This document shows, one piece after another, positions 5,420 to 17,870 of a DNA stretch of 35,472 nucleotides. The position numbers and the translations under genes were made by a program. Below the pieces are notes generated by a model. It did not search any database, was not told the origin of the DNA, and saw only the letters and a program-made list of their open reading frames with translations. Where the stretch lies: IMG/VR virus record IMGVR_UViG_3300047322_000317, positions 1 through 35,472 of that record; one strand, given 5' to 3'. Position 1 is the stretch's first letter. Each line of letters begins with the position of its first letter. The DNA comes from a virus.

Positions 5420-5833
5420 ATGCGCCGCATGAAGCCGCTGCTCGTCCTGCTGGCCGTACTGGCGCTGGGGTGCTCGTCGGACGGGCAGGGCGGGCTGCGG
5501 GATCCGGTGACCCCGGCGCCGACGCCGCTGCCTGCGCCCGTGCCGAGGACGATCCGGGTGGATTACCGCGTGACCGGCACCATCCCGGCGACGGAGATTA
5601 CCTACTTCAGTTCGGCGCAGGGGACGACGCAAGTGCGGACGGACCTGCCGTGGGCGATCAGCTACACGACGACGGACCTGCACCCGTTCCTCTACCTCGC
5701 CGCTGAGACACCCGTGTCGAACTTCATCGACGGGTCGCTGACGGTGCAGGTCTTTGTCGATGGCGTGCTGTTCCGCGAGGCGCGCGGCTCGGGCTTCACC
5801 ATCGCGGTGGCCGCGAGCGGAGAGGTGCCGTGA
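5420..5833 (+). CDS. MmpS-like lipoprotein
   Basis: 137 residues; an in-frame ATG at 5429 could give 134. A short basic start, a Leu/Val-rich stretch and LALGC ending at C18 form a lipoprotein signal, followed by a Pro-rich linker. The mature domain (about 42-137) reads like the small beta-sandwich of mycobacterial MmpS proteins: an opening YRVTGT strand, EITYFSS, a TQV segment, DLPWAISY, hydrophobic LYLAAET, then VQVFVDGVLFRE. Phage lipoproteins often alter the infected cell, for example by blocking superinfection. Here the role is unknown and that idea is inference. The next gene encodes an exported or membrane protein, so the pair may work together. Confidence 0.6.
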   Translation: MRRMKPLLVLLAVLALGCSSDGQGGLRDPVTPAPTPLPAPVPRTIRVDYRVTGTIPATEITYFSSAQGTTQVRTDLPWAISYTTTDLHPFLYLAAETPVSNFIDGSLTVQVFVDGVLFREARGSGFTIAVAASGEVP

Positions 5834-6273
5834 TGCGACGAGGGCTGGCGACACTGGTGCTGCTGACGCTGGCGACGCCGGTCAGTGCGGGGCCGCTGCT
5901 GGACAGCGCGCGGCGGCAGTATGCGACGCCCGTGCGGGTCTACACGACGGAGATGCACTCGCCGCTGCTGTTCTGGACGGGGGCGACGCTGGTGGCGGGC
6001 GGGACGCTCGCGATCATCGCGTCGCTGACGTGGGCGCAGCAGAGCGACCTGACGCGGGAAGATCCGAACACGCGGCTGGGGCGCGACCTCGCGCCATGCG
6101 GGACGGACCCGGCGGTGACGCGGATGCCCATCGCCGACTGCAAGACGAACACGGGGCTGCAGGTGTTTGGCATCCTGACGAGCGCAGGCGGCGGGGTGCT
6201 GATGGCGGTGGGCGGGCAGCGCGTGCAGATTGTGAGCAGCCCGTCGCAGGTGGGCGTGCGTGTCCGCTGGTGA
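5833..6273 (+). CDS. exported or membrane protein, unknown function
   Basis: 146 residues from the ATG at 5833 (TGATG overlap with the lipoprotein gene); a GTG at 5830 would add one residue. A purine-rich GGAGAGG at 5819-5825 lies seven bases upstream. Residues 1-20 look like a signal peptide ending in VSAG. Two hydrophobic segments follow, around 45-68 (LLFWTGATLVAGGTLAIIAS) and 108-130 (a Gly-rich VFGILTSAGGGVL run), with a Cys pair (about 88 and 102) in the loop between them that could form a disulfide outside the cytoplasm. I know no family match. It sits in an envelope-directed pair with the lipoprotein. Confidence 0.6.
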   Translation: MRRGLATLVLLTLATPVSAGPLLDSARRQYATPVRVYTTEMHSPLLFWTGATLVAGGTLAIIASLTWAQQSDLTREDPNTRLGRDLAPCGTDPAVTRMPIADCKTNTGLQVFGILTSAGGGVLMAVGGQRVQIVSSPSQVGVRVRW

Positions 6274-7399: not shown

Positions 7400-7476
7400 G
7401 CGCCCGGCGCGTGGTCTGGTGGCTGGCGCTGCTGCTGCTGGTCATCGCGTTTTCGTGGTGGCTGGACCGACGCTGA
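7396..7476 (+). CDS. 26-residue membrane peptide
   Basis: A GTG start overlaps the preceding TGA, and the TGA overlaps the ATG of the large terminase (TGATG at 7474-7478), so the peptide fills the gap exactly. After a basic SARR start comes one hydrophobic segment of about 17 residues (VVWWLALLLLVIAFSWW), then a charged LDRR end: a single-span membrane peptide. The reading frame fits its neighbours too neatly to be ignored, but short size makes chance possible. A small holin-like or regulatory peptide is one idea; nothing proves it. Confidence 0.5.
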   Translation: MSARRVVWWLALLLLVIAFSWWLDRR

Positions 7477-8984
7477 TGCCCACGGTGAAAGACTGGTGGA
7501 ACCCGGTCCAAAGCGCGTTCCTGCTGGCCGAGGCGCTGACGTGGCCCTACGTCGATCTGGAAGGCGCGGTGCGGGCGGGCAAGACGACGCCGCTGGTCGC
7601 GAAGGTGGCGACCTACTGCGTCGATTTCCCCGGCATCCACTGCGCGCTCTGCCGGTGGACGCAGGACGCGCTCGACGCGCAGCTGAAGCCGCGCTGGCGC
7701 GACTGGTGCGCGCTGCACGGCATCCGGCTGCAGTGGCACGCGGACGAAGAGTATGACGAGGTCGTCGGGACCGGGTCGCGCGTCTACCTGCGGGCGCTGA
7801 AGGGCGCCGAGGAGACGAGCCGCTACGGCAAGCTGGCGGGGCTGACGTTGGCGGTGCTGGGCATCGACCAGCCCGAAGAGGTGCCCGAGGATGTGTATCG
7901 GCACTACGTGCCGACGCGGCTGTCGCAGCCGGGGTATCCGCATCAGGTGCTGCTGACGCCGAACCCGCCGGGGCTGACGCACTGGCTGGCGGTGGAGTTC
8001 CCCGAGCGCAACACGACGCCGGGCCACCTCTACCTGCGAACGAGCGTCTACGACAACCGGCACAACCTCGGGGACCGCTACATCGACTCGCTGGAGCAGG
8101 CGTATCCCGAGGGGCACGCGCTGCGGCGGCGGTTCATCGAGGGCAAGCGCGGCCTGCCGATTGTGGGCAAGCCGGTCTACGCGGGGGTGTTCCAGTCGCG
8201 GATCCATGTGCAGCGGTTGCGGCTGAACCCCGACGTGCCGCTGCTGGAGGGCTGGGATTTCGGGCACGCCCATCCGAGTGTCGTGTGGGCGCAGGTGCTG
8301 CCGTGGGGCGAGCTACGCGTGCTGGGCGGCATTCTGGGGACGGACCAGTTCATCGAAGACTTCGCGCCGATGGCGGTGGCGCAGCGGGTGATCTGGTTCG
8401 GGGGCGAGCCGGACCCGCTGGGCGAGCGCGAGTTGCCGTGCGAGGTGTGGAGCACGGGCGACCCGGCGGGGGACCAGAACAATTCGCAGGGCACGCGGGT
8501 CAGCGCAGCGGACGTGCTGCGCGAGTATGGCGTGAACCTCTACACGATTGCGGGGGCGAACCATCCTGACGCGCGCGACCGGTGCATCCAGCATCTCGCG
8601 GGCTACATGCAGCGGCTGACCAAGCAAGGCCCAGCGTTCACGGTGGACCCGGAGCGGTGGCGGATGAGTGCGCCGGAGGGCGTGATCGAGAGCACGCACT
8701 TCATCGACGCGCTGGAGGCGGGCTATACGTGGGACCAGCGGAGCATCGCGCACGCGGTGTCGCCGAACACGCGGCGGGCGCGCAAGGACGGGTTCTACGA
8801 CCACGCGATGAATTGCATCGAGTATGTGGTGCTGGCGTATGGCCCGGCGCAGCCGACGAAAGTGAACGTGGAGAAGGCGCAGGCGCGGCTGCGGCAGCAG
8901 ATGACGAAAGACTACGACGAGGCCGACGTGCGGGTGCAGGCAGCGGCGGGGTCGCGGTTCGGGGGCGTGCGGCGGCGTCGGTGA
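7476..8984 (+). CDS. terL: terminase large subunit
   Basis: 502 residues, a normal length. The ATPase half has a Walker [11 protein letters not shown] (29-38) and a Walker B strand [13 protein letters not shown] (123-135) with the acidic pair at the end. The nuclease half shows the RNase H-like acidic sites: D261 in GWDFGH, D329 in STGDPAG and D442 in [11 protein letters not shown]. This is the motor that pumps DNA into the prohead and cuts concatemers. The start is the ATG overlapping the small membrane-peptide gene; the open frame further up has no better start. The Arg/Gly-rich tail after residue 480 is probably disordered. Confidence 0.94.
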
Positions 8985-9295: not shown

Positions 9296-9865
9296 GTGCC
9301 GGAGCAGCCCTCGCCCGACGCGGTCGCGCAGATGGCGGCATGGTTGCGCCGCATCGCGCAGCAGTATCGCCCGGCGAGCGAGCGCGCAGCGGCCTCGCAG
9401 CCGGACGCGCTGCCGACGCCCCCGGTGGCGCCGGGGATCTTCCAGCCCGACCCGATGCTGGTGGGATCGACGCCGTTGCAGCAGCTGGCGCGGCGGGTGC
9501 TTGATGCCACGCCCGAAGTGAAGGCGCGGCTGTCGCAGGTGCTCGCCGCCCCGGATCTGGGCGCACGCGGGGAGCTAGCCTCCAGCGGCTACGAGGCGCA
9601 AGACTACCCCGACGTGACGCTCTACGGGACGGCGTCGCCGTTTCGCGCGCCGACGGGGCAGCAGGTCAGCCTGAACCCCGGGCTGGACGACGCGGACCAA
9701 GGCGCGGTGCTGATGCACGAACTGGCGCATGTGGCGGGCGCGGACGACGAGCCGGACCAGCGGGCGAACAACGCGGAAGACCTCTGGAATGCTTTGACGG
9801 GCCGGGATGTGATGCCGGTCAAATATCGGGAAGCGCGTGTGCTGACGCGCCCCCTTCTACGCTAA
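9296..9865 (+). CDS. HEXXH zincin-like metalloprotease protein
   Basis: 189 residues if the GTG right after the previous stop is used; an ATG at 9332 would shorten it by 12. Residues 1-60 are Pro/Ala-rich linker with a short helix. The conserved-looking core spans about 85-185: a GYEAQDYPDVTLYG strand region, a substrate-strand-like QQVSLNPG, then GAVLMHELAHVAG with H141-E-L-A-H145, the zinc-binding and catalytic motif of zincins. D150, D151 and E152 soon after could give a third ligand. Placed between terminase and portal, it may act as a maturation or entry protease; this is inference. Peptidase activity is untested. Confidence 0.62.
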   Translation: MPEQPSPDAVAQMAAWLRRIAQQYRPASERAAASQPDALPTPPVAPGIFQPDPMLVGSTPLQQLARRVLDATPEVKARLSQVLAAPDLGARGELASSGYEAQDYPDVTLYGTASPFRAPTGQQVSLNPGLDDADQGAVLMHELAHVAGADDEPDQRANNAEDLWNALTGRDVMPVKYREARVLTRPLLR

Positions 9866-9880
9866 AGGAGCACTGGACCC

Positions 9881-10402
9881 ATGCGATCAGTCGTTGCGCT
9901 CATCACGTTCCTCGGCGACGCGCCGTATCCTGACAACTCGCTGCCGCAGCCGCAGCCGAAACCGCCGTGGGCCGGGGGGCCGGGGGGACCGGGCACGCAG
10001 CCGCCCGTGTATCCGTCGCACCCGATCTACCACCCGTCCTACCCGTCGCAGGGTCTGCCGCCGTTCCCCGACAACAGCCTGCCGGGTCAGCCGCCGTATC
10101 CCTCGCAGGGGTTGCCGCCGTTCCCGTCGCACCCCATCGTGCTGCCGCCCGGCATCCCGCAGCCGCCGCTGGGCATCTGGGGACCGGGGTTTGGGTATCC
10201 CGACAACACGCTGCCGACGCCGCCCGCGCAGCCCGGCTACCCGGTGAACCTGCCCGCGCAGCACCCCGAGGGCGGCTGGGTCTACGCGTTCGTGCCCGGC
10301 GTGGGCTGGGTGTGGGCCTACAAGCCCAGCGACGCGCGGCCTGACAACACGCTGCCCCCGACCGGCGAGGGCGAAGAGACGCCCGAGATCAACCCCCTCT
10401 AG
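9881..10402 (+). CDS. proline-rich protein with PDN(S/T)LP repeats
   Basis: 173 residues. AAGGAG at 9866-9871 precedes the ATG by nine bases. PDNSLP or PDNTLP occurs at 17-22, 63-68, 107-112 and 154-159. Between the copies are YPSQGLPPF (54-62, 73-81) and PSHPI (45-49, 82-86) repeats, all Pro-rich and probably extended. The only folded-looking part is GGWVYAFVPGVGWVWAYKP near 131-149, two short aromatic strands. Similar Pro-rich PDN-type proteins occur beside phage head genes in my recollection, without known function. No signal peptide or catalytic motif is seen. Confidence 0.62.
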   Translation: MRSVVALITFLGDAPYPDNSLPQPQPKPPWAGGPGGPGTQPPVYPSHPIYHPSYPSQGLPPFPDNSLPGQPPYPSQGLPPFPSHPIVLPPGIPQPPLGIWGPGFGYPDNTLPTPPAQPGYPVNLPAQHPEGGWVYAFVPGVGWVWAYKPSDARPDNTLPPTGEGEETPEINPL

Positions 10403-10406
10403 GGCC

Positions 10407-10580
10407 ATGCGCGTCTACCACGTCGTCCTGAGCAACGGCAGCGAGCGCGATGTCACCGCGCACGAAGTGCTCGTCCACAACGGGTCGCTCGTCTTCAGGA
10501 ATGAGGCGGGCGACGACATCCTGATTTACTCGGACACGGCGTGGTTGGCGTGCGAAGTGTCACGCCTCGATGACAAGTAG
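10407..10580 (+). CDS. small beta-rich protein, unknown function
   Basis: 57 residues from the ATG four bases after the previous stop. It alternates short hydrophobic strands (RVYHVVLSNG, VLVHNGSLVFR, DILIYSD, WLACEV), suggesting a small beta barrel or sheet. The TAG overlaps the AGGAGG site of the following gene. Coding style matches the neighbours. I do not recognise a family. Confidence 0.55.
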   Translation: MRVYHVVLSNGSERDVTAHEVLVHNGSLVFRNEAGDDILIYSDTAWLACEVSRLDDK

Positions 10581-10590
10581 GAGGCTCCCC

Positions 10591-11253
10591 ATGCGTCGAT
10601 TGATGGCTCTCGCGCTGCTGGCCCTGCTGGCTCTGCCAGCGGCAGCGCGGGCAACAACGATCACCTCGTTCGGCAACATCAACACCCAGCAGTTCGTCGC
10701 GACGGATAACGGCAACGGCACGACCACGCTGACGATCAGCACCGACGTGAACATCACGCAGATCTTTGCGGGGGGCTTGGACCCGGATGCGCTGCTGACG
10801 TTCACGGCCAACAGCACGGGCGATGCGACGGCGGCGGGCGTGCTCTGGGTCCAGCCGTTCGTCGGCACCTTCGCGCTGACGAATCAGGCGGGGACGTTCA
10901 ACTACCTCGACGGCACGTTCAACGGCGCGCTGCAGCTGGGCGTGGTGAACGGCACCAATTCGCTGTTCACGTCGAACAACACCGTGGGCAACTTGGTGCT
11001 GGCGAGTGATCTGGCGGCGCTGATCTCGCCGGAGAGCTTCTCGCTGTCGCTGTCGAACCTCACGCCGCCGTTCTCGATTGACTCGTCGGGCGGGCACAAC
11101 ACCATCGGCAGCTTCACGGCCTCCTTCACGGGGACGGCGGATGCGTTTGTCGCCACGCCCGTGCCGGAGCCGGGGTCGCTGGTGCTGCTCGGCAGCGGCC
11201 TGCTGGGGGCGGCGGGTGCCGCGCGCCGGACGCTCCGTCGTCGTCGCACGTAA
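10591..11253 (+). CDS. PEP-CTERM sorting-signal protein
   Basis: 220 residues. AGGAGG at 10579-10584, six bases before the ATG, decides the start. Residues 1-22 are a signal peptide (basic start, Leu/Ala core, ARA-T cleavage site). The middle is Thr/Asn/Ser-rich beta structure, like many surface proteins. The last 30 residues hold the full sorting signal: V-P-E-P-G at 191-195, a hydrophobic LVLLGSGLLGAAG segment and a basic ARRTLRRRR end. In bacteria this C-terminal signal is recognised by exosortase, which processes extracellular proteins. A host-type envelope or surface protein between phage terminase and portal is unusual; it may have been taken from the host. Confidence 0.82.
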   Translation: MRRLMALALLALLALPAAARATTITSFGNINTQQFVATDNGNGTTTLTISTDVNITQIFAGGLDPDALLTFTANSTGDATAAGVLWVQPFVGTFALTNQAGTFNYLDGTFNGALQLGVVNGTNSLFTSNNTVGNLVLASDLAALISPESFSLSLSNLTPPFSIDSSGGHNTIGSFTASFTGTADAFVATPVPEPGSLVLLGSGLLGAAGAARRTLRRRRT

Positions 11254-11473
11254 GGACATCACGGCGCCCATCCTCGACAACGAGACATGGGCGCAGTGCC
11301 TCACCTGCGGGCGCACGCGGCGCGTCCAGACGGTGCCGGGGCTACTCTGGACAACCATTCGCGCCTGCTGGCGCTGCGAGCACCGTATGCAAATCAGCGG
11401 AACCTTTCCGGCGTTGAACACCCCGCGCAAGCCGTCGCGCAAGCCGAAGGCACCGAAGCCCCCGAAGAAGTAA
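11216..11473 (+). CDS. small protein with two CxxC pairs
   Basis: 85 residues from a GTG overlapping the end of the PEP-CTERM gene by 38 bases; the frame upstream of that is a shadow. C28-x2-C31 (CLTC) and C51-x2-C54 (CWRC) are placed as in a zinc ribbon, with WAQ before and a TVPGLLW strand between. The tail is Pro/Lys-rich and disordered. The start is uncertain, but the zinc core starts well inside any choice. It ends three bases before the portal ATG, so it may be a head-assembly accessory. Function unknown. Confidence 0.6.
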   Translation: MPRAGRSVVVARKDITAPILDNETWAQCLTCGRTRRVQTVPGLLWTTIRACWRCEHRMQISGTFPALNTPRKPSRKPKAPKPPKK

Positions 11474-11476
11474 GCG

Positions 11477-13705
11477 ATGCCGCCCCCGCCCCGCACCGTC
11501 TACCCGCGTCCGTCCCGGCGCAAGCTGACGCCGCCCAAGCTCGGGGCGACGCCGTGGGACGTGAAGCTCGACCCTGACCAGAAGACCGATCTGGTCAACA
11601 TGCTGTCGGAAGAGATCGACCGGGCGGTGGCGGCGCGCGGGCCGATCATCAACCCCGGCGGTGACCTCGATTACTGGCACTGGCTCTACAAGCAGGGGAA
11701 GCGCAACACGCGCGACCTGCCGTTCCCCGGCGCCGCCGACCTCTCGACGTGGATCATCGCCGAGAAGATCGACGCGATGCGGGCGCGGTTCTGCAAGACC
11801 GTGTTTGTCGAGCCGGTGTGGGTCGTGGACGGCTGGGGCAACGCGGCGCCCAAGGCGCCGATGGTGGAAGAGTTCCACCAGTGGAAGCAGGAAGAGGAGC
11901 GGCTGCAGGGCTGGCTCCAGCGCACGCTGCAGCTGGCGCTCATCGAGGGCACGGGCGTGCTGGAGTGCTCCGAGCGCGCCGACATGATCAAGCGGCGGTC
12001 GATGCGGACGCTGCAGCCGGAGCGCGATCCGGCCACCGGGATGGTCATCGCCGACGACCGGGGCGTCGTCGCGCCGGAGGTCGATGATCAAGGCGCCTAC
12101 ATGGACGCGACGGACCCGAACGAGACGGGCGCGCTGACCGCGCCGGTTGATGAGTTCGTGCCGGTGCGGCGCGGCCCCAGCTACCGCAACGTCTCGCTGC
12201 GCGACTTCCTGATCCTTCCGGCGCACGCGCAGGACGACAGCGAGATCTGGTGCTACGCGAAGCGGTTCTGGCGGCGGCTGAAGGAACTGAAGAGCCGCGC
12301 CAAGAGCGGCCTCTACGACAAGGACGCGGTCGAGAACCTCTCGGCGACCAGTGACCGCACGCGCACCGAACTGCCGCAGTCGGTGATGCAGGGCGGCATC
12401 GACGTGGCCGCGCAGTCGAACGAGACGACCATCGAGAAAGAGCTATGGGAACTGCACGTCCTGCTCGACCTCGATGACGACGGCAGCGAGGAGTGGTACA
12501 TCATCACGCTGTCGGCCATTCACCGGCAGATCCTGCGCGTGCAGCTGGACGACCTCGGTCTGCCGCGCTACCTGCTGTTCCGGCCCGCCCCCAACCCGCT
12601 GAACGTCTACGGCCAGAGCCACGTCGATAAGCTCGCGTCGATTGGCGAAGAGCACATGGGCACGCGCAATGCGATTGCCGACCGCAGCAACCTCGTCAAC
12701 AACGCGCCGATCAAGCGACTCAGGAACAGCGGCTGGGACATGGACGAGGAGCCGTGGGGCGTGGGCGCGGTCATCACGGTGCAGGACATGGGCGACGTAC
12801 AGCCCGTGGCCCTGCCTGATGTACCGCAGTCGATGGCGGGGCGCGAGCAGGCGATCATCGACGCGGCGGAACGCCTGAGCGGGCTGAACGACGTGACGCT
12901 CGGCAGCGCGCCGCAGGAGAGCCGCACGCTCGGCGAAGTGCAGATGGTCACCGAGCAGAGCTTCGTCCGCATCGAAGAGCAGGTCCGCAACATTCAGGAG
13001 ACGATGGAGGATCTGTTCAAGATCCGCCACGAACTGTGGCGCCGCGCGGCGGATGAAGCGCCGCTGGAGGCGAGCGAGCGGTTCATGCAGCAGCTGCAGT
13101 TCCGCCAGATCGACCTCGCCGAGGGCGGCATCACGGGCGAGGCGCTCGCCGGGACGTTCCACGGGAAACCCCACGGGTCGGTCGAGAGCGCGGACAAGAG
13201 CAAGCAGCGGAGCAACTACAACGGGTTCATGCAGGTGATGGGCGGGTTCGCGCAGATGAACCCGACGCTGCAGCAGGTGTTCTCGTCGCCGGACGTGATC
13301 ATCCCGCTGTTTGAGCAGGCGCTGTCGCTCTACGACTCACCGAACAAGGGCCAGCTGATGCGCTCGCTGCGGCAGTGGCAGACACAGCAGGCGATGCAGC
13401 CGCCCCCGCCCCCGCCGGGGATGCAGCCGCCGGGCGCGCAGCCGGGGGCGCCGCCGCCGCCGGGCGCCGGAGCGCCGCCACCGGGACCACCGGGACCACC
13501 GCCGCCGCCGGGAGGCCCGCCGCCACCGGGGCCACCGCCACCGGGACCGCCCCCGCCGGGAGGCCCGCCGATGGGCAACGAGGGCGGGATGCCGCCGCCG
13601 CAGCCGATGCCGCCGGACGTGGTGCCGGGCATGGGGTCGATGCCGCAGGTGCCGCCTGACCTGCTGGCGCAGATGTCGTTGGCGATGTCCCACGGAGTGC
13701 AGTAG
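11477..13705 (+). CDS. portal protein
   Basis: 742 residues, in the range of podovirus-type portals. The N-terminal half has the usual helical wing elements with the DLPFPGAADLSTWI segment at about 80-93 and the LRDFLILPAHAQDDSEIWCYAKR segment at about 240-260. A central strand-rich part (DDDGSEEWYIITL near 334-346) is followed by LFRPAPNPLNVYGQSHVDKL and a long helix with the EEHMGTRNAIADRSNLVNN segment. The portal is the dodecameric ring at one capsid vertex through which DNA passes. From about residue 640 the tail is Pro/Gly-rich (repeated PPPGP), expected to be disordered. Position between terminase and capsid genes supports the call. Confidence 0.88.
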   Translation: MPPPPRTVYPRPSRRKLTPPKLGATPWDVKLDPDQKTDLVNMLSEEIDRAVAARGPIINPGGDLDYWHWLYKQGKRNTRDLPFPGAADLSTWIIAEKIDAMRARFCKTVFVEPVWVVDGWGNAAPKAPMVEEFHQWKQEEERLQGWLQRTLQLALIEGTGVLECSERADMIKRRSMRTLQPERDPATGMVIADDRGVVAPEVDDQGAYMDATDPNETGALTAPVDEFVPVRRGPSYRNVSLRDFLILPAHAQDDSEIWCYAKRFWRRLKELKSRAKSGLYDKDAVENLSATSDRTRTELPQSVMQGGIDVAAQSNETTIEKELWELHVLLDLDDDGSEEWYIITLSAIHRQILRVQLDDLGLPRYLLFRPAPNPLNVYGQSHVDKLASIGEEHMGTRNAIADRSNLVNNAPIKRLRNSGWDMDEEPWGVGAVITVQDMGDVQPVALPDVPQSMAGREQAIIDAAERLSGLNDVTLGSAPQESRTLGEVQMVTEQSFVRIEEQVRNIQETMEDLFKIRHELWRRAADEAPLEASERFMQQLQFRQIDLAEGGITGEALAGTFHGKPHGSVESADKSKQRSNYNGFMQVMGGFAQMNPTLQQVFSSPDVIIPLFEQALSLYDSPNKGQLMRSLRQWQTQQAMQPPPPPPGMQPPGAQPGAPPPPGAGAPPPGPPGPPPPPGGPPPPGPPPPGPPPPGGPPMGNEGGMPPPQPMPPDVVPGMGSMPQVPPDLLAQMSLAMSHGVQ

Positions 13706-16952: not shown

Positions 16953-17870
16953 ATGCAAGTACGCGGAACTTTTGCGGCGCTCTACGACAACGTCGATAAG
17001 ACGGTGTACGCGCTGCTCGGCAAGCAGCTGAAAGAGCTTCCCCCCATCTGGACCGACATCTACTCGCGCAAGAGTTCCTCGCGCAAGTTCGAACGGTTCC
17101 AGACCGTCACGCCGTTCGGCGACGTGCCCGAGAAGCCCGAGGGCAGCATCTACGCCTTCGACCTGATTCGGCCCGGCTACAGCAAGGACGTGACGCCGGT
17201 CGAGTTCGGCCTCGGCTTCGAAGTCACCGAGACGGCGATGGAAGACGACCAGTTCGACGTGCTGCAGCGGCAGGCGTCGTGGCTCGCGTTCTCCGCGCGC
17301 GTCGTGCAGGAGAAGTACGCGGCGATCCCGTTCAACCTCGGGTTCTCGACGCAGCTGGCGCCCGATGGTGTGTCGCTCTTCAACACGGCGCACGTCTTGG
17401 CCGGGGGCGGCACCGCGCGCAACCGTCCGGCGACGGATGCCGACCTGAGCTACGACTCGCTGAATCAGGCGATTGTCGATGTGCAGACGGACACGAAGCT
17501 GGAGAGCGGGCAGCTGGTCGCGCCCGTGATGAACTGGATCCTCTACGTGCCGCCGCAGCTGGAGATGCTGGCCGACCGCCTGCTCAACAGCACGCTGCTG
17601 CCGGGGAGCGTGGACAACGATGTGAACCCGATCAAGCGTCGGCGCAACATCCGCATCCTCACCAACCCCTACCTGACGGATCAGGACGCGTGGTTCCTCG
17701 TCGCCGATGCGAAGGAAACGCACGGGCTGGTCTGCGTGGACCGCGTCGGGATCACCGCCGCCCCTGCCATGCAGGACGCGCGCACCGGCAACCGGATCTA
17801 CAAGGTCCGCTTCCGGCAGGCGTGGGACGCGTTCCTCTGGCAGAACATCTACGGCACGGCTGGCGCATAG
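16953..17870 (+). CDS. major capsid protein (HK97 fold, gpT-like)
   Basis: 305 residues; GAGGAG about nine bases before the ATG supports the start. The sequence runs in the order expected of Mu gpT-type capsid proteins: an opening helix with LYDNVDKTVYALLG, a strand/loop FERFQTVTPFGDVPEKPEGS (E-loop-like region), DVTPVEFGLGFEVTETAMEDD, a long helix with SARVVQEKYAA, the LFNTAHVLAGGGTARN loop typical of this family, YDSLNQAIVDVQ, ILYVPPQLEMLADRLL and a final VRFRQAWDAFLW strand region. It builds the icosahedral shell. Two hairpins follow the gene, consistent with the end of an abundant transcript. Confidence 0.9.
   Translation: MQVRGTFAALYDNVDKTVYALLGKQLKELPPIWTDIYSRKSSSRKFERFQTVTPFGDVPEKPEGSIYAFDLIRPGYSKDVTPVEFGLGFEVTETAMEDDQFDVLQRQASWLAFSARVVQEKYAAIPFNLGFSTQLAPDGVSLFNTAHVLAGGGTARNRPATDADLSYDSLNQAIVDVQTDTKLESGQLVAPVMNWILYVPPQLEMLADRLLNSTLLPGSVDNDVNPIKRRRNIRILTNPYLTDQDAWFLVADAKETHGLVCVDRVGITAAPAMQDARTGNRIYKVRFRQAWDAFLWQNIYGTAGA

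Follow-up and report, generated by a model that had tools for sequence, protein, structure and literature searches.

The window analyzed here, the whole of a single IMG/VR contig of 35,472 bases, carries phage late genes in the order terminase large subunit, SU10-type portal, and major capsid protein, with a gene for a PEP-CTERM protein between terminase and portal (Table 1). The PEP-CTERM ORF starts at ATG 10591, six bases downstream of an AGGAGG sequence. An alternative in-frame ATG at 10570, inside the 3' end of the small ORF before it, is less likely. Although some relatives keep an overlapping minus-strand ORF (10495–11496) open, we rejected it as a real gene, since homology, the pattern of substitutions, and the Pfam match favor the plus-strand PEP-CTERM gene.

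Table 1. Features of the PEP-CTERM locus and of the surrounding late genes in the window
Feature	Position	Strand	Evidence
Terminase large subunit	7464–8984	+	phrog_2 (1.8e-12), TIGR01547 (3e-8)
Small conserved ORF, 57 aa, left bound of insertion	10407–10580	+	Kept in relatives with and without the PEP-CTERM gene
Shine-Dalgarno-like AGGAGG of the PEP-CTERM gene	10579–10584	+	Sequence; alignment with gene-less L013, where it is kept
PEP-CTERM gene (predicted moron), 220 aa	10591–11253, stop codon included	+	PF07589, family alignment, empty site in relatives
Signal peptide, residues 1–21, predicted cleavage after ARA	10591–10653	+	Hydropathy; N-terminal helix in AF2 model
Beta-rich body, barrel-like in AF2 model, mean pLDDT 88	10654–11160	+	AF2 model; distant barrel matches
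PEP-CTERM tail: VPEP, hydrophobic helix, RRTLRRRRT	11161–11250	+	PF07589, residues 190–213; AF2 helix 195–218
Small CxxC (zinc-ribbon-like) ORF, right bound of insertion	11249–11473	+	Homologues in relatives with and without the PEP-CTERM gene
SU10-type portal protein	11477–13705	+	PF23899 (5.2e-21)
Major capsid protein	16953–17870	+	PF25209 (1.1e-18)

The original prediction of a signal peptide, a Thr/Asn-rich body, and a PEP-CTERM tail in this ORF is borne out by Pfam, hydropathy, and composition. The Pfam PEP-CTERM model (PF07589) aligns over its full 24 positions with 25.5 bits against a cutoff of 20.7, and the tail also has matches to many PEP-CTERM families of NCBIfam. Hydropathy identifies an N-terminal hydrophobic segment (residues 3–20), with ARA preceding residue 22 as in a signal peptide, and a C-terminal one (194–211) followed by RRTLRRRR. 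No transmembrane segment lies between signal and tail, only two short, mildly hydrophobic stretches around strands of the structural model. The mature body contains 16.6% Thr, 9.5% Ser, and 9.5% Asn and is devoid of Cys, Lys, and Arg; Haft et al., 2006 (PMC1569441) list low contents of basic residues and Cys and raised Thr/Ser/Asn among the traits of PEP-CTERM proteins. In all these traits, from the signal peptide and body composition to the Pro-Glu-Pro motif, hydrophobic helix, and basic end, the protein resembles substrates of the PEP-CTERM/exosortase (EpsH) system. A loose test for PEP-CTERM tails matched this ORF only in the window, with a chance rate of 0.03 per window in 60 Markov-resampled windows.

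The AlphaFold2 model (mean pLDDT 88) consists of an N-terminal helix, long antiparallel strands in a barrel-like arrangement, and the C-terminal helix. Foldseek returned nothing at E 0.001 or better for this model among PDB and viral models. A second structure comparison found distant similarity to small beta barrels (PloI4/AbyU cyclases, dirigent proteins, OmpA), the AOC/AbyU-like eight-stranded barrel being a weak match (best Z 9.7, rmsd 3.5 over 127 residues, 13% identity). This likeness may reflect only a common arrangement, and fold matches as weak as these name no function.

The gene is optional and recurs across phage lineages

The PEP-CTERM gene lies directly 5' of the portal gene in independent contigs from other metagenomes, with 52–81% identity to the window protein (L003, 81%; L005/L030, 69%; L017, about 67%; L006 and L025, 56%; L019/L022, about 54%). 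It is absent from relatives with an equally close portal (89%), namely L010–L016 and L031. An alignment of the window with L030, L013, and L010 reveals a clean empty site: L013 and L010 lack exactly the PEP-CTERM gene, with both flanks intact. With 88% identity, L013 follows the window as far as the ribosome-binding sequence TAGGAGGCTTCCCA; next in L013 come the intergenic region downstream and the small CxxC ORF, so that the whole PEP-CTERM ORF is missing. In this alignment the CxxC ORF, next to the portal gene, is 78–80% identical. Related phages had been suggested as a place to look for further PEP-CTERM signals, and a tail above the cutoff is indeed present in 21 of 37 records of the window's clade and its relatives. 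Fifteen have no match, among them the 38–43 kb contigs G011, G023, and G024; most of the 37 records are fragments, and absence of the gene is firm only where the site itself is seen. Since some close relatives do without it, the gene is not essential.

Homologues of the PEP-CTERM protein, with about 31–85% identity, occur at differing positions in several unrelated phage lineages. The pattern VPEP.SL.LLG.GL matched at least 111 ORFs (94 distinct) in viral contigs, the viral status of the other scanned contigs being that of their listing among viral contigs. Among the matches listed, 43 of the 94 distinct ORFs group with the window protein in a single family of homologues; further members came from a scan with the FGQ subgroup. 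Family members sit beside window-type terminase and portal genes (the window, L064, L075, L121, L124, and L141; 65–79%), phrog_979 terminases (L054, L105, L127, L180), phage DNA polymerase or replication genes (L136, L091, L178), an endolysin and a phrog_1216 portal (L083), or a head protease (L104). Members of the phrog_156 portal group (L045, L046, L055, L072, L079, L090, L115) have tails of the type GLGLVRQRRA. In L053, the gene lies on the minus strand, flanked by scaffold and capsid genes on the plus strand. Homologues are thus found in early modules (L136, L091) as well as in late ones, so the timing of expression may differ among phages. A second, unrelated PEP-CTERM gene adjoins the family member in L009, L017, L054, and L123; in L009 and L017 its product has a long poly-proline stretch ahead of the tail. 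About half of the distinct viral-contig PEP-CTERM ORFs among the matches listed belong to other, unrelated families, and the carriage of PEP-CTERM proteins by phages may be general in soil.

At the L013 and L010 site, an extra gene is placed between conserved genes, is missing from close relatives, and leaves intact flanks. Together with the changing positions in unrelated lineages, this empty site argues that the PEP-CTERM gene is a moron, a mobile accessory gene that, judging from the sequences compared, moves between phage lineages. It shares with lambdoid phage morons the insertion of a single gene between conserved structural genes, the presence or absence among close relatives, and, in L053, the opposite strand. 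Unlike those morons, it has no recognizable promoter or terminator of its own in the window: a scan of positions 9800–11600 for sigma-70 consensus promoters and terminators, a consensus that may not be that of the host, found neither.

PEP-CTERM proteins are normally bacterial (PMC1569441), and the gene could in principle be bacterial DNA brought into a viral contig by insertion, contamination, or an assembly join. We give this explanation next to no weight. The recurrence at the same site in independent metagenomes, the clean empty-site allele, and the homologues across unrelated phage lineages rule it out and establish the gene as phage-borne; moreover, no bacterial homologue of the body was found in the genomes searched. 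A tyrosine integrase is encoded in four of 47 viral records and in none of the window's clade; the PEP-CTERM contigs are therefore not prophage edges with host DNA.

The gene's neighborhood also bears on whether the protein belongs to the particle or disrupts the envelope during lysis. It lies within packaging and head genes in the window's clade and beside an endolysin gene in L083, but it is optional in close relatives and sits among replication genes in other phages, and a Sec signal combined with a PEP-CTERM tail is ill-suited to a capsid protein. A virion or lysis function is thus very unlikely.

Sequence conservation centers on the sorting tail

For most pairs of relatives, dN/dS of the PEP-CTERM gene is 0.31–0.57, with 0.10 in one pair; values for portal and terminase are about 0.3 and that for the capsid is 0.035. 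The differences fall mostly at third codon positions, which, with the dN/dS values, supports the plus strand and the annotated frame, and this frame is open in 30 aligned relatives. The protein is thus under constraint but evolves fast, as would be expected if it were exposed.

Conservation differs along the protein. Across 30 members, the mean majority-residue fraction is 0.84 in the first 15 columns of the tail versus 0.56 in the body. All 30 retain PEP, and their last 14 positions include two to six basic residues; as the aligned members were partly found by their tail, its universal presence is partly by construction, but members found through the body or the portal keep it too. The tail is the best-conserved part of the family and is under selection.

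Such a pattern could also arise if the protein were a decoy, an abundant substrate that saturates the host exosortase and thereby depletes the cell surface of host proteins, among them possibly receptors or barriers. Conservation of the tail far above that of the body fits this idea, as does the occurrence of the same kind of tail on unrelated bodies in viral contigs. However, a pure decoy would need neither the defined predicted fold nor the purifying selection that the body retains, and we consider a decoy function unlikely.

Exosortase and candidate hosts

No exosortase (PF09721) is encoded in any of 47 viral records, 44 of which bear a PEP-CTERM gene, so the host must supply the enzyme. 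With the tail as the most conserved part of the protein, this strongly implies the predicted use of the host sorting system. As a pointer to the host group, which the tag had also been thought to provide, it is weak.

Alignment of the terminase with 84,980 species genomes identified one relative, L154, a phage contig binned in a Gemmatimonadaceae metagenome-assembled genome (MAG). L154 represents a distant sister group (terminase 48%, portal 41%, capsid 63% identity to the window) and lacks the PEP-CTERM gene. No exosortase was detected in the MAG that contains it, and the link of this MAG to the window phage is weak. L154 thus gives a weak hint at a possible host; a single terminase match at 48% is too distant to name Gemmatimonadaceae, and we rejected this assignment. 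Among 200 Gemmatimonadota genomes, 43 encode an exosortase and 28 have PEP-CTERM tails that match the family model, 25 of the latter with both, indicating that the phylum has suitable hosts. The window contains no tRNA genes that could serve as a host clue.

A search for the nearest bacterial homologue, suggested along with the original prediction, yielded none for the body of the protein, either in the 200 Gemmatimonadota genomes or in a narrow scan of GTDB with only two peptide patterns. The body likewise had no match in plasmids or in cultured-phage genomes (INPHARED), and a tail-only query of INPHARED, in which the BLAST low-complexity filter may have masked the tail, found nothing. Exosortase systems are found preferentially in bacteria of soils and biofilms (PMC1569441), and exosortase status is a possible predictor of phage host range.

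Possible roles at the host surface

PEP-CTERM proteins are exported by Sec, retained by their C-terminal helix, processed by exosortase, and released to the surface or into exopolysaccharide (PMC1569441, PMC12188702). From this known biology, it is very probable that the phage protein undergoes Sec export, exosortase processing, and surface display. In the mechanism that we propose, the host would be an exosortase-bearing Gram-negative soil bacterium. After export by Sec, the protein would be retained in the inner membrane by its PEP-CTERM tail until the host exosortase (EpsH) cuts the tail, upon which the body would pass to the outer surface or the exopolysaccharide. There, late in infection, the displayed body may shield or block the phage receptor, which would exclude superinfecting phages and keep new virions from sticking to debris.

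We advance receptor masking tentatively, by analogy: the T5 lipoprotein Llp alters the receptor FhuA and so puts an end to further infection, a precedent for surface conversion by a phage-encoded protein (PMC9586334). Its main rivals are exosortase titration, discussed above, and remodeling of the matrix or floc, in which the displayed protein would bind exopolysaccharide and alter the aggregation of infected cells or the retention and spread of virions. PEP-CTERM proteins have a known role in flocs and biofilms (PMC12188702), the subject also of Gao et al., 2018, as far as that work is relayed in PMC12642866, and the two unrelated PEP-CTERM genes found side by side in four contigs look as if several surface functions were delivered. 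Pfam and structure searches, however, recognized no carbohydrate-binding fold or domain, and we regard matrix remodeling as rather improbable.

Lysogenic conversion is unlikely to be the main use of the gene because most of these phages lack a tyrosine integrase, a marker of lysogeny; a function during lytic infection is the better fit. Taken as a whole, the reading that we favor, a mobile phage moron whose product is displayed on the surface by the host exosortase, with receptor masking or superinfection exclusion as its likeliest purpose, is on balance probable. We place somewhat more confidence in a strategy shared by unrelated soil phages, which would swap small genes for proteins sorted by the host exosortase and so convert the surface during lytic infection by means of a Gram-negative sorting signal.

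Relation to known systems

The gene differs from the components of bacterial PEP-CTERM/exosortase systems in that it is a predicted mobile accessory gene of phages, which encode no exosortase in the records searched, and in that its body is absent from the bacterial genomes searched. By function, its product may be likened to the superinfection-exclusion lipoproteins Llp of T5 and Cor of T1/phi80, which are also small, exported phage proteins dispensable for the particle. Those proteins, in contrast, use a lipoprotein anchor and jam an outer-membrane receptor (PMC9586334), whereas exosortase sorting is predicted for the window protein.

Our literature search for PEP-CTERM together with phage, prophage, or viral auxiliary genes, and for exosortase together with bacteriophage, found no description of such a protein. 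The closest precedent is a brief reference to TIGR03118 proteins, which carry a putative exosortase-interaction domain, in a survey of Yellowstone hot-spring viruses (PMC11003980). These proteins likewise place an exosortase-type C-terminus on viral contigs, but they are another family and were reported there only as transferred cellular genes, without a mechanism (PMC11003980). Phage surface-conversion genes and PEP-CTERM proteins are thus each known already, and their combination as a mobile phage family is apparently new.

If the proposed mechanism is true, it represents an apparently undescribed way for phages to re-dress the host surface with the cell's own exosortase and may give soil phages a new means of excluding superinfection or manipulating the matrix. 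To our knowledge, roles have been assigned to few exosortase substrates. The mobile phage family, with its preserved sorting tag and drifting body, offers direct access to the question of what viruses gain from a protein on that surface.

Other genes of the window

Three further genes and one protein region merit mention. A putative metallopeptidase (9296–9865), with a HELAHVAG motif and weak DUF6782 and IrrE-like matches, is encoded between the terminase and a Pro-rich ORF; among the loci searched it occurs only in near-identical contigs and is likely another optional gene. The C-terminal extension of the portal protein (about 13390–13640) is of low complexity, rich in Pro and Gly, and homology to most relatives ends near residue 637. 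Positions 5429–5833 encode a lipoprotein (MKPLLVLLAVLALGCSS...) that weakly matches an MmpS-like family (PF05423, E 0.032). It is conserved in the window's clade, including relatives without the PEP-CTERM gene, is found in other phage groups as well (L127, L091, L178, L043), and by its sequence would be a second envelope-directed protein of the window phage. The gene directly 3' of it (5833–6273) encodes a secreted or membrane protein that is shared, at 73–75% identity, with the L019 and L006 groups only.
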